Assembly (NCBI GenBank): GCA_017617235.1
Contig: JAFZWQ010000012.1
Location: 1 to 64,000, forward strand
Reading direction: 5' to 3'
Length of the DNA: 64,000 bases
From: Bacteroidaceae bacterium
GTDB taxonomy: Bacteria; Bacteroidota; Bacteroidia; Bacteroidales; Bacteroidaceae
Below the pieces are notes generated by a model that did no database searches, was not told the DNA's origin, and worked only from the letters and a program-made list of their open reading frames with translations. Below are positions 4,040 to 38,570 of the stretch, in pieces (position 1 is the stretch's first letter; the number at the start of each line of letters is the position of its first letter). Both the position numbers and the translations under genes were made by a program.

Positions 4040-4111
4040 AAAATCTCCCCCTACCCCCTCCATAGAGGGGAGAGACCCCACCCCCCTTACCCCTCCCGAG
4101 GGAGGGGAGTA
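4040..4111 (+). repeat. Two tandem REP-like palindromes
   Basis: Two direct copies of the GC-rich element sit back to back between pepD and the macroglobulin gene. Each is a C-rich head (CCCCCTACC; GACCCCACC) followed by a palindrome (CCCCTCCATAGAGGGG; CCCTCCCGAGGGAGGGG). They match the copies at 4201, 36430, 36808, 37240 and 38523. Confidence 0.8.
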
Positions 4112-35783: not shown

Positions 35784-36842
35784 TTAGAACGCGCTTGCTT
35801 TCAGCATCAGTCCGGCCTTTTCGTCCAACCCGAACATCAGATTCATGTTCTGCACGGCCTGACCCACAGCACCCTTCAGCAGGTTGTCGATGGTGGAAAC
35901 CATGAGCAGCTGGTCCTCGAATTTCTCGACGTACACCAGCGCCTTGTTGGTGTTCACCACCTGCTTCATGTCGGGCGATGTGGTTACGAAGTGCGTGAAG
36001 GCCGCATCCTTGTAATAGTCGGCATAGATTTGCTGCACCTCCTCGATGGGCTTGTCGCACTTTGCAACAGCCGTCACAAAGATGCCTCGTGCGAAGCAGC
36101 CTCGCTGTGGAACGAAGAGCACGCGACCCTTGTAGCCGGGATGGAGTTCCTGCACCGTCTGGTTTATTTCCAGCAGATGTTGGTGGGTGAAGGTCTTGTA
36201 GAGCGACACGTTGTCCGTGCGCCACGAGAAGTGTGTCGTTGCTCCGGGCTTCTGTCCAGCACCCGTGCTGCCCGTCACACCGCTGACGTGGATGTCGCCC
36301 TCGATGAGTCCGGCCTTCAGCGCTGGCAGCATGGCCAGCTGTATGCACGTCGCAAAACACCCCGGATTCGCTAAATGCTGTGCCCCGCGAATACTCTCCC
36401 TATGCGTTTCTGGAAGTCCATAAATAAACGACCCCCTACTAACTCCCCCGAGGGGGAGAACTGAAGACTGGGAAGCCTCCCCACGGGGAGGTTGGGAGGG
36501 GGCTATTCGGAAATCCTGAGCAAGGTCGATAATCTTCACGTTTGCCGGAATTGTGTGTTCCTTCAGGAATTGTTCACTCTTGCCGTGACCAAAGCAGAAG
36601 AATACCACGTCCACCTGGTCAAATGGCATTTCACTAGTAAACTTTAAATCAGTTTCACCAATAAGACCTTCGTGAACATCACTAACAGGATTCCCCGCAT
36701 TACTTTCACTATTAGCAAAGACAATCTCTGCCTGTGGATGTCCCAGCAACACCCGGATGAGTTCTCCACCCGTGTATCCTGCTGCCCCTAGGATCCCCAC
36801 CTTTATTCCTCCCCGAGGGGAGGATGTTTTTATATTGTTCAT
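35784..36842 (-). CDS. argC: N-acetyl-gamma-glutamyl-phosphate reductase with REP-encoded insertion
   Basis: 352 residues; third step of arginine synthesis. Core motifs are intact: KVGILGAAGYTGGELIRVLL (NADP loop), FCFGHGKSEQFL, the catalytic Cys in ANPGCFATCIQL, GVTGSTGAGQKPG and the HQHLLEI region. Two REP-like elements are part of the coding sequence. Residues 4-12 before IKVGIL (TSSPRGG) come from a palindrome at 36808-36825. Residues 113-138, between LAQDFR and FIYGLPE, come from a pair of inverted palindromes (36429-36506) and have no counterpart in ordinary ArgC. The insertion is 78 bp, in frame, and the enzyme is probably still active. The start overlaps the DUF559 stop by 4 bp (ATGA). 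Confidence 0.92.
   Translation of the reverse strand: MNNIKTSSPRGGIKVGILGAAGYTGGELIRVLLGHPQAEIVFANSESNAGNPVSDVHEGLIGETDLKFTSEMPFDQVDVVFFCFGHGKSEQFLKEHTIPANVKIIDLAQDFRIAPSQPPRGEASQSSVLPLGGVSRGSFIYGLPETHRESIRGAQHLANPGCFATCIQLAMLPALKAGLIEGDIHVSGVTGSTGAGQKPGATTHFSWRTDNVSLYKTFTHQHLLEINQTVQELHPGYKGRVLFVPQRGCFARGIFVTAVAKCDKPIEEVQQIYADYYKDAAFTHFVTTSPDMKQVVNTNKALVYVEKFEDQLLMVSTIDNLLKGAVGQAVQNMNLMFGLDEKAGLMLKASAF
36429..36506. repeat. BIME-like inverted REP pair inside argC
   Basis: Two copies of the element face each other. GACCCCCTACTAA with palindrome CTCCCCCGAGGGGGAG is on plus. The mirror copy, palindrome CCTCCCCACGGGGAGG with tail TTGGGAGGGGGCT, lies ~17 bp away. The insert is a multiple of three and contains no stop in the argC frame. 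Confidence 0.85.
36791..36826 (+). repeat. REP-like element at the argC start, left flank of the DUF559 gene
   Basis: Palindrome CCTCCCCGAGGGGAGG at 36808-36825, preceded by GATCCCCACCTTTATT, which resembles the C-rich head. Part of that head resemblance may be chance, since those bases encode the conserved ArgC KVGIL. Confidence 0.65.
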
Positions 36843-37228
36843 GTCCTTTGACTAAGTTGTTGTTTAATTGTGTTCAATACTTCTGGGAGATTTTCTATGA
36901 CATCTTCATTTTTAAAACGTATAACATTATACCCCATATCTCTCAGCCTTTCTGTTCTGAACTCATCTTTTTCTATCTGCTCGTATTCAGAATGATATCC
37001 TCCATCTACCTCTATGACAAGCTTCTTTTCAATACAAACGAAATCTACGATATAATCCCTGATTATGTGTTGTTTGTTGAATTTGACGGATAATTGTTTT
37101 GCCCGGATATATTCCCACAGTAGCTTTTCAGCATCTGTAGGGAATTGTTTGTTTTTCTTAGCGAAATCCTTCAAAAGTAAATACCTATCAGGTGATGCCG
37201 TATTATAGTTCCCATCATTTCTTCCCAT
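36839..37228 (-). CDS. DUF559 (Vsr/restriction-like) endonuclease domain protein
   Basis: 129 residues from the ATG at 37228 (MGRNDGNYNTASPDRY); the longer upstream frame would only translate the REP element and the argG tail. The DUF559 pattern is clear: TDAEKLLWEYIRAKQLSVKF, then the nuclease-like core IVDFVCIEKKLVIEVDGGYH (D-x16-E-V-D) and RTERLRDMGYNVIRFKNEDV. These proteins belong to the PD-(D/E)xK/Vsr fold and their biological role is not settled. It is wedged between argG and argC, flanked by inverted REP-like palindromes, and overlaps argC by 4 bp. The context suggests a mobile cassette. Confidence 0.87.
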   Translation of the reverse strand: MGRNDGNYNTASPDRYLLLKDFAKKNKQFPTDAEKLLWEYIRAKQLSVKFNKQHIIRDYIVDFVCIEKKLVIEVDGGYHSEYEQIEKDEFRTERLRDMGYNVIRFKNEDVIENLPEVLNTIKQQLSQRT

Positions 37229-37237
37229 ATTAATAAT

Positions 37238-37275
37238 GTTTCTCCCTCCCCTCGGGGAGGGTCGGGGTAGGGGTC
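37238..37275 (-). repeat. REP-like element between argG and DUF559
   Basis: Minus strand: GACCCCTACCCCGACCC then CTCCCCGAGGGGAGGGAGA, directly after the argG stop and 10-15 bp before the DUF559 ATG. It is inverted relative to the copy at 36791. Confidence 0.85.
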
Positions 37276-38478
37276 TTACCTTTTTTCGTCTGGGTGTGCG
37301 AGGTAATAGGCGCGGAGGGGGGTAGAGGTGACTTTGATGAAGCCTTTGGCTTCGTCGCTGGTCCAACCCTTGGCACCCTCGCCGTATTCGCCCAGCTTGT
37401 TCTTCACCAGGTCGTCGGGCGTGTCACAACCCACTGTCTGGAAGCAGTAGGGACGCAGTTCCAGCGTTACCTCGCCGTTCACGTGGCGCTGGCTGCTGGT
37501 GAGCATAGCCTCGATGTCCGGCATTACGGGTTCCAGGTACTGGCTCTCGTGCAGGAACATGCCGTACCAGTTGGCCACCTGCTCCTTCCAATACTGCTGC
37601 CATTTGCTGAGGGTGTACTTCTCCAGGAAGCGGTGTGCACCGATGATGAGCATGGGTGCTGCGGCCTCGAAGCCCACACGTCCCTTGATGCCTACGATGG
37701 TGTCGCCCACGTGGCAGTCGCGACCGATGGCATACTGCGCACCAATCTCCTCTACGGCCTGAATGGCCTTAATCTTATCATCGTACTTTTTGCCGTTCAC
37801 GCTTACCAGCTCACCCTTCTCGAATCCCAGCTTCAACTGTTCGGGTTCCGACTTTGTGGGGTGCTTCAGGTAGGCGCTTTCGGGCAGACCCTGCTTCGAG
37901 TCGAGAATCTCGCCTCCGCAGATGCTGGTGCCCCAGATGCCCACGTTGTACGAGTACTTCAGCTTGGCAAAGTCGGCAGGGAAGCCGTTCTTGTTCAGGT
38001 AGTCGATTTCCTCCTGTCGGCTCAGGTTCTTGTCGCGCGTCAGGGTGATGATTTCCACGCCAGGGGCCATCACCAGGAAGGTCATGTCGAAACGAATCTG
38101 GTCGTTTCCGGCACCCGTCGAGCCGTGTGCAATGGCGCTGGCACCAATCTCGTTGGCATAGCGTGCGATGGCCAGTGCCTGGAATATGCGCTCGCTGCTC
38201 ACGCTGATGGGGTAGCAGTTGTTACGCAGCACGTTGCCGAACACCATGTATTTCAGCGACTTCTCGTAATATTCCTGCGTAACGTCCAGCGTTACATACT
38301 TTGTGGCGCCCAGTTTGTAGGCGTTTTCCTCGTTCGTCTTCAGCTGTTCGGCACTGAAACCGCCCGTGTTGGCACAGGCAGCATGCACTTCGTAACCCAT
38401 TTCCTTGGCCAGATACATCACCGTGTAGCTGGTATCCAGTCCGCCGCTAAAGGCAACCACTACTTTCTTCTTTTCCAT
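37276..38478 (-). CDS. argG: Argininosuccinate synthase
   Basis: A 400-residue ATP-dependent ligase joining citrulline and aspartate. It starts KKVVVAFSGGLDTSYTVMYL with the PP-loop SGGLDTS. Further markers are AHGSTGAGNDQIRFD and DRDCHVGD-like IGRDCHVGDTIVGIKGRVGFEAA. Like other Bacteroidetes ArgG it departs from the E. coli type. It is third in the argR-led run, and the stop is immediately followed by a REP-like palindrome. Confidence 0.96.
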   Translation of the reverse strand: MEKKKVVVAFSGGLDTSYTVMYLAKEMGYEVHAACANTGGFSAEQLKTNEENAYKLGATKYVTLDVTQEYYEKSLKYMVFGNVLRNNCYPISVSSERIFQALAIARYANEIGASAIAHGSTGAGNDQIRFDMTFLVMAPGVEIITLTRDKNLSRQEEIDYLNKNGFPADFAKLKYSYNVGIWGTSICGGEILDSKQGLPESAYLKHPTKSEPEQLKLGFEKGELVSVNGKKYDDKIKAIQAVEEIGAQYAIGRDCHVGDTIVGIKGRVGFEAAAPMLIIGAHRFLEKYTLSKWQQYWKEQVANWYGMFLHESQYLEPVMPDIEAMLTSSQRHVNGEVTLELRPYCFQTVGCDTPDDLVKNKLGEYGEGAKGWTSDEAKGFIKVTSTPLRAYYLAHPDEKR

Positions 38479-38522: not shown

Positions 38523-38570
38523 TCCTCTCTCTTTCCTTCCCTCGGGAGGGTTAGGGAGGGGTCTCTCATT
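38523..38570 (-). repeat. REP-like element between the GNAT gene and argG
   Basis: Minus strand: GACCCCTCCCTAACCC then CTCCCGAGGGAAGG, followed by a purine-rich GAAAGAGAGAGGAG. It overlaps the end of the GNAT gene. Confidence 0.75.

Follow-up and report, generated by a model that had tools for sequence, protein, structure and literature searches.

The DNA analysed here, which we call the window, is a stretch of 64,000 nucleotides from a Bacteroidaceae bacterium (assembly GCA_017617235.1, contig JAFZWQ010000012.1), and between its genes argG and argC lies a gene for a nuclease of the DUF559 family (PF04480) enclosed by two inverted palindromic arms. We refer to gene and arms together as the DUF559 element; an arm consists of a hairpin and a G-rich head. 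Loci and genomes of our samples carry L and G numbers. The features of the junction are as follows.

36807..37275, minus strand: DUF559 element, 469 bp from arm to arm, running from the argG stop codon to the point where argC encodes IKVGIL; limits inferred from the junctions of relatives
37245..37260, no strand: hairpin of the argG-side arm, CCTCCCCTCGGGGAGG, from the sequence
37261..37275, plus strand: G-rich head of the argG-side arm, third strand of a potential triplex, terminating at the argG stop codon; from the sequence
36839..37228, minus strand: nuclease gene, DUF559 (PF04480), 129 amino acids plus stop; open reading frame and domain match
36839..36842, minus strand: ATGA overlap of DUF559 stop and argC start, from the sequence
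36807..36842, minus strand: ArgC N-terminus encoded by the element, MNNIKTSSPRGG; comparison with relatives
36808..36823, no strand: argC-side hairpin, CCTCCCCGAGGGGAGG; a G-rich head cannot be recognised in this arm, and ArgC sequence comes next; from the sequence
35784..36842, minus strand: host gene argC
37276..38478, minus strand: host gene argG, named by translation

An earlier note, made from the letters of the window alone, had described a palindrome–gene–palindrome arrangement with the palindromes inverted, and this is what we find: the hairpins CCTCCCCGAGGGGAGG and CCTCCCCTCGGGGAGG are perfect reverse complements of 16 nt each, spaced by 421 nt, and the open reading frame between them on the minus strand matches PF04480 with E 1e-32. 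The note was also right about the 4-bp ATGA overlap, in which the DUF559 TGA overlaps the argC ATG, and about the cassette supplying N-terminal codons of argC. ArgC starts in the window with MNNIKTSSPRGG-IKVGILG, whereas element-free relatives begin right at the motif, as L101 does with MIKVGILG, so that 12 argC codons including the start belong to the element. Its caution over the argC-side (left) head was justified, as this head is ordinary ArgC sequence that is found in element-free relatives too. The folding energies of the arms as single-stranded DNA are ordinary compared with shuffled sequences (z −1.36 and −0.75); the unusual feature of the arms is their repetition and inverted pairing, not their folding energy.

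The earlier note had linked DUF559 to the palindromes from this one locus, and the link extends to most other DUF559 genes that we examined. We took the 300 bp on either side of each DUF559 domain and aligned the left flank with the reverse-complemented right flank, with the identical measure at shifted positions within the same loci as controls. Among 199 genomes of the window's family, the Bacteroidaceae, PF04480 was present in 70; contig-end hits (G154:C1, G133:C22, G158:C9 and G113:C85) and rows at or below about 72 bits were not taken in. Arms above the 95th percentile of controls flanked 100 of the 111 family loci (controls, 21/435), with 98 loci above the 99th percentile (controls, 5/435) and 89 above the highest control. 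A cross-phylum scan covered the best 80 of at least 584 relatives, 75 of them testable and five with flanks too short. Here 62 loci exceeded the 95th percentile (cut-off 26; controls, 17/383), 51 the 99th (4/383) and 25 the highest control. By record titles, the armed loci include ones from Proteobacteria, Chloroflexi, Bacillota, Bacteroidota, Gracilibacteria and Omnitrophota, and from Geobacter relatives, the spirochaete Turneriella, Rokuibacteriota, Verrucomicrobia and Entotheonella. Cyanobacterial, elusimicrobial and latescibacterial loci are among the 13 that fell below the cut-off, and a planctomycete locus lay outside the testable set. Across phyla, the inner arm-to-arm distances are mostly short and the interior is held by one gene family. 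DUF559 loci on viral contigs scored above 26 in 14 of 18 testable cases (flanks were too short in 10 of 28), and three family genomes (G059, G090 and G157) contain six full-length DUF559 copies each. A separate phylum-wide sample without controls of its own (30 loci, three too short) is excluded from these counts; L050 and L113 are one locus in two samples. We conclude that, across the sampled bacteria, the DUF559 gene recurs as a unit with its arms, which lie inverted at the two ends of that unit.

Measured end to end by arm alignment, 100 elements spanned 425–854 bp (median 529). In 34 elements both ends were anchored; none of these has direct repeats of at least 4 bp in its flanks, and one has a repeat of 3 bp; a classical insertion sequence with miniature inverted-repeat derivatives (MITEs) was rejected on this lack of target-site duplication. 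Because the pattern used for end anchoring itself requires [AG]CC, this terminal sequence does not count as a finding. At the 62 armed cross-phylum loci, the host reading frame continued on both sides (at least 60 codons beyond the arms) in 24 and on one side in 12, and the element had its own frame in 26; the corresponding numbers for the 100 family elements were 6, 19 and 75. Where it is in frame, the element continues the host frame as translated sequence. Putative host genes, named by translation, include leuS (two sites), metH-type methyltransferases, hsdR, hsdM, other restriction-modification genes, recG, spoIID and purL, and some in-gene copies have decayed arms (L028, L029, L049, L052 and L302–L305). 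For the 80 family elements whose own DUF559 frame stops short of the downstream gene, we looked for start takeover, defined as a start codon within the element from which an open frame crosses the right arm and enters that gene. This was seen in 53, compared with 25 of 317 control windows, and the argC arrangement of the window is of this type. The occupied places are permissive, lying between operon genes with start takeover or in frame within proteins. We read the in-frame design, which avoids stop codons and brings a start codon of its own through translational coupling, most readily as the result of selection for insertions that do no harm.

These places are polymorphic. The argC start was readable by motif in 22 of 30 loci of the window's genus, and the DUF559 element occupied the argG–argC junction in two of them (the window and L089). 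As the other 20 have no element there, the junction is not ancient and fixed. Of the two outcomes that the earlier note had named as refuting its proposal, an ancient junction and other DUF559 genes without the palindrome, neither was seen. By eye, 18 of the 20 are armless, several with other short repeats, and L083 and L086 hold a single arm-like hairpin. This hairpin lies after argG in L083 and at the argC N-terminus in L086; both are perhaps element remnants. Of the 61 genomes in the genus of G400, 59 matched a leuS query, and one loop, putatively part of the CP1 domain, was read in 44. Armed DUF559 elements occupy the loop in L323 (same genome as L301), L343, L347, L353 and L354. L344 has an armless DUF559 there and L352 a single arm similar to the right-hand one of L347; the remaining 37 are armless, 15 with a minimal 60-nt loop and the rest with other short sequence, often repeats. 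With three more genomes added, the DUF559 proteins at this site are 47–93% identical.

Within the family, 69 of the 111 elements fall into 17 recurrent sites. The argG–argC site alone has nine elements in five genera and several DUF559 lineages, on a tree built from few columns and with many open forks. One of these lineages is informative: the DUF559 protein of L232 (g5) is 79% identical to that of the window (g1) and 54% to that of L043 (g5, same site), whereas its argG is 83% identical to the window's and 90% to that of L043. With DUF559 nearer the window and argG nearer L043, this pattern points to horizontal movement to the same place and not to descent alone. Judged from such protein comparisons, the recurrent sites are re-occupied by different DUF559 lineages, part of the recurrence arising because only tolerant loops and junctions survive selection. 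The permissive loops of ArgC and LeuRS also host several unrelated short in-frame repeats (for example, AAAGTCAAAAGTCG types; L079, L086, L100, L314, L317 and L340). A further recurrent site appears in viral contigs, where DUF559 elements with strong inverted arms (L189, L190, L194, L196, L200, L205 and L207) sit between putative terminase and portal genes; by translations, the context is putatively that of small alphaproteobacterial prophage or gene-transfer-agent clusters.

Arm pairs without a gene exist alongside the element. The window genome (2.54 Mb, 85.5% complete) contains 63 hairpins with at most two mismatches, compared with 3 for the reversed pattern; together with the shifted-window controls of the arm tests, this rules out chance palindromes. 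By eye, 13 of 14 distinct stretches (L003–L017; L004 and L005 are the same) hold two arms, some decayed, with heads outward in the order GACCCCtnCCCCnA-hairpin ... hairpin-TnAGGGGTAGGGGTC and enclosing 6 to about 110 bp. In several cases, L008 and L010 among them, the pair encloses the start codon of the following gene, whose protein then has the second arm translated at its N-terminus. Compared with DUF559 arms of other genomes, the gene-less copies have heads that match the head of the window element more closely (median 22 versus 14; 15 versus 79 loci). Similarity was scored on heads only, because the window's own loci had been selected by hairpin core, which biases a comparison of whole arms. 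Two further features lie near the element.

36430..36503, no strand: inverted arm pair without a gene, in frame within argC; the loop is short or otherwise filled in relatives
38536..38563, no strand: lone arm (hairpin and head) past the stop codon of a putative GNAT-like gene upstream of argG

The pair within argC was seen in none of the 27 relatives in which the loop was read; theirs is short (DFRIAGEHDYVYGLPE-like) or holds other, longer inserts (L079, L086 and L100). We consider the gene-less arm pairs, one of them within argC, to be candidate non-autonomous copies. A further arm, at window position 4092, has a C-rich head and the hairpin CCTCCCGAGGGAGG, adjoining GTATATAC.

On the evidence of its core, third strand and inverted pairing, we identify the arm as the published intrastrand-triplex motif TM, named TMECO in E. 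coli. The passages on these sites in Holder et al. 2015 (PMC4666352) report TM in more than 260 genomes, with 23 in E. coli K-12, five inverted pairs and all intergenic there; they describe E. coli TM sites as genomically unstable, by a mechanism left unclear, and state that a mobility function was never found around TMECO sites. PIT, an earlier name, comes from the same text, where Hoyne et al. are cited, and an excerpt on the Enterobacter sp. 638 genome (PMC2869309) gives 100 CCCTCTCCC..GGGAGAGGG palindromes. The order expected of TM/PIT, the purine arm of a hairpin followed by a mirror-like purine third strand, can be read in the arms described here, with a third-strand mirror match of 0.85 versus 0.72 in shuffled heads (20 hand-picked arms out of 50). 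The intergenic location seen in K-12 does not hold, as arms lie in frame within genes. In K-12 itself ycjD is a DUF559 gene. By eye, the gap between fabI and ycjD contains a TM-like repeat and the 3′ end of ycjD a second, partial one; the strict TM pattern gave no match at this locus. At least 80% of the ycjD block is found in one place in 3333 of 5426 E. coli genomes. We rejected fabI–ycjD–sapF as a clean empty site; the three ycjD-less strains that were read carry other genes there, annotated as eefC and eefD or as efflux genes.

The nuclease looks intact, to go by its conserved positions. Invariant in 40 aligned sequences (window and cross-phylum) are T31, E34, W38, D62, F63, E73, D75, G76, H79, D88, R91, R104 and others, among which E34, D62, E73, D75, H79 and D88 are the putative active-site residues. 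Solved relatives by sequence are 3hrl, an 'Endonuclease-Like Protein' (E 8e-34), and 3r3p, a 'Mobile intron protein' (E 2e-7), which we take to be the I-Bth0305I nuclease. The Pfam entry of DUF559 is still one of unknown function. In the relevant part of PMC9403480, DUF559 is assigned to the EDxHD homing family, and the portion of PMC12907096 dealing with the Caulobacter DUF559 protein VsrA describes an SOS response in cells lacking cytosine methyltransferase and models the protein on Vsr.

The analogy with REP/RAYT drawn by the earlier note proved apt: the window genome holds gene-less inverted pairs with heads matching that of its DUF559 element. A search of that genome at 85.5% completeness for the RAYT-type Y1 transposase (PF01797) gave no match, other transposase types not being searched. 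Among 18 family genomes checked, seven (G059, G186, G068, G042, G192, G111 and G198) combine a high number of arms with DUF559 and gave no Y1 match. The five family Y1 genes that we took (L357–L361) lack TM arms, and four carry inverted repeats that differ from these in sequence; Y1 and DUF559 systems therefore run in parallel. Those four have palindromes of their own, GCCCTGAAAGGGC, GCCCCAAAGGGGCG and further ones, in the manner of REP/RAYT sets. RAYT was rejected as the mobiliser in the window genome on these results. A net arm count of at least 5 was reached by 28 of 57 genomes with DUF559 and by 9 of 142 without (odds ratio 14, kinship ignored; 13 genomes with weak PF04480 matches only were classed as negative). 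This correlation is a weak test because a single pattern misses arm variants such as CCCTCTCC. In G132, 122 arm-pattern matches stand against 164 reversed-control matches, which points to a different G-rich repeat, not distinguishable from arms by this pattern.

We propose, with a probability of roughly 0.7, that the junction holds a mobile element of about 0.5 kb from a previously unrecognised class, in which inverted TM/PIT arms surround a compact Vsr/EDxHD-type DUF559 nuclease that is the partner of TM repeats. The class is best read as working like REP/RAYT or a homing endonuclease while belonging to neither. The earlier note had suggested DUF559 as the mobilising or domesticating partner of the repeat; the association stands, through recurrent armed loci, whereas mobilisation by DUF559 itself is something that we infer. 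The nuclease would cut DNA at or near the arm or the target, and repair of the break would copy the element in, either in a homing-like manner or by strand transfer. Gene-less pairs would borrow the same enzyme in trans. Open reading frames and an own start codon would let the element survive within operons and genes.

Several observations weigh against this proposal. Movement has not been observed. Significant arms are missing from 11 of the 111 family DUF559 loci, and some in-frame DUF559 copies are armless (L028, L029, L049 and L052). By the one pattern used, 29 of the 57 DUF559 genomes have a net arm count below 5. G014 has 113 arm-pattern matches (control 0) with Y1 present and no DUF559 found, G148 has 19 with neither Y1 nor DUF559, and Y1 matched in 10 of the 18 family genomes checked. 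Site recurrence could partly reflect old insertion and loss or a small number of tolerated sites, and the arms may attract insertions passively. The Caulobacter DUF559 protein is interpreted by the authors, in the portion of PMC12907096 concerned, as a mismatch-repair enzyme.

The alternative that survives best, though we think it unlikely, is that DUF559 is a homing endonuclease parasite: older TM pairs would have moved otherwise, or by replication slippage, and DUF559 would invade empty pairs and be copied by gene conversion between the arms. The 'Mobile intron protein' 3r3p as solved relative and the EDxHD assignment in the cited part of PMC9403480 speak for it, as do DUF559 lineages bound to sites across genera and arms without DUF559 in some genomes. 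It fits less well with the window genome, where Y1 was not found (other transposase types were not searched) and gene-less arm heads resemble the head of the DUF559 element. Moreover, gene-free relatives are mostly armless at argG–argC and leuS, so the gene form entered places that did not necessarily hold an arm pair. A maintenance or repair enzyme is clearly more doubtful still; here DUF559 would patrol TM structures or mismatches in a Vsr-like way and stay beside them for regulation, not transposition. Such a role would suit the VsrA results reported in that portion of PMC12907096, and it leaves unexplained the in-frame insertions, the polymorphic junctions, the gene-less pairs and the six full-length copies per genome in G059, G090 and G157. 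Least probable of all is a passive hot spot, in which fragile or insertion-prone arms trap DUF559 like other cargo with no functional link, as the instability of E. coli TM sites in the passages of PMC4666352 might suggest, since inverted repeats flank 100 of 111 DUF559 loci against 21 of 435 shifted windows of the same loci, inner distances are mostly short and a single gene family lies inside across phyla.

Carried to the whole domain, the proposal of a DUF559-driven element becomes tentative, with odds that we put a little short of even: TM/PIT repeats would be non-autonomous copies of one ancient element class whose autonomous form encodes DUF559. This class would transpose by its triplex or hairpin ends with no duplicated target, and would have evolved stop-free frames and an own start for life in operons and proteins. 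The repeat and the nuclease family were each already known separately, and we found no link between them in the literature collection searched. A specific, widely conserved nuclease partner makes the origin of TM repeats and the instability around them testable, including in E. coli K-12, could explain the spread of a widespread bacterial repeat and points to a role for DUF559. If the proposal is true, it provides a second, RAYT-independent route for the spread of small palindromes and a natural mobile gene that inserts in frame into proteins, apparently without splicing.

Four known systems invite comparison. REPINs are inverted pairs of short palindromes with a head, and occur as a gene form and many gene-less forms. 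The element resembles REP/RAYT in its inverted palindrome pairs and in the gene-less copies within the window genome; it differs in that the enzyme is a DUF559 nuclease and not a Y1/HUH transposase, and no Y1 gene flanked by these palindromes was found in the window genome or among the five family Y1 genes. Rickettsia palindromic elements are in-frame palindromic repeats translated inside proteins. To our knowledge, the sequences of such elements differ from those of the arms. Translation of palindromic repeats within proteins is shared with these elements and with the palindromic amphipathic repeat coding sequence (PMC2996958), but here a nuclease-bearing form exists. EDxHD/Vsr-like homing endonucleases such as I-Bth0305I are akin in the sequence of the nuclease domain, including its conserved acidic and His positions, and likewise form site-bound lineages crossing genera. 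The element departs from them in its palindromic arms, in that no intron or intein was recognised around it (no search for either was made), and in its compact DUF559 protein (129 amino acids), without the extended DNA-binding region reported for I-Bth0305I in the section concerned of PMC3943268. The TM/TMECO/PIT repeats themselves share the hairpin with a G-rich third strand, the inverted pairs and a core of the CCCTC..GAGGG type, and in E. coli K-12 we find such a repeat adjoining the DUF559 gene ycjD. The relevant passages of PMC4666352 describe the repeats as always intergenic in K-12, with no mobility gene near, whereas here they bracket a nuclease gene and often lie within reading frames.

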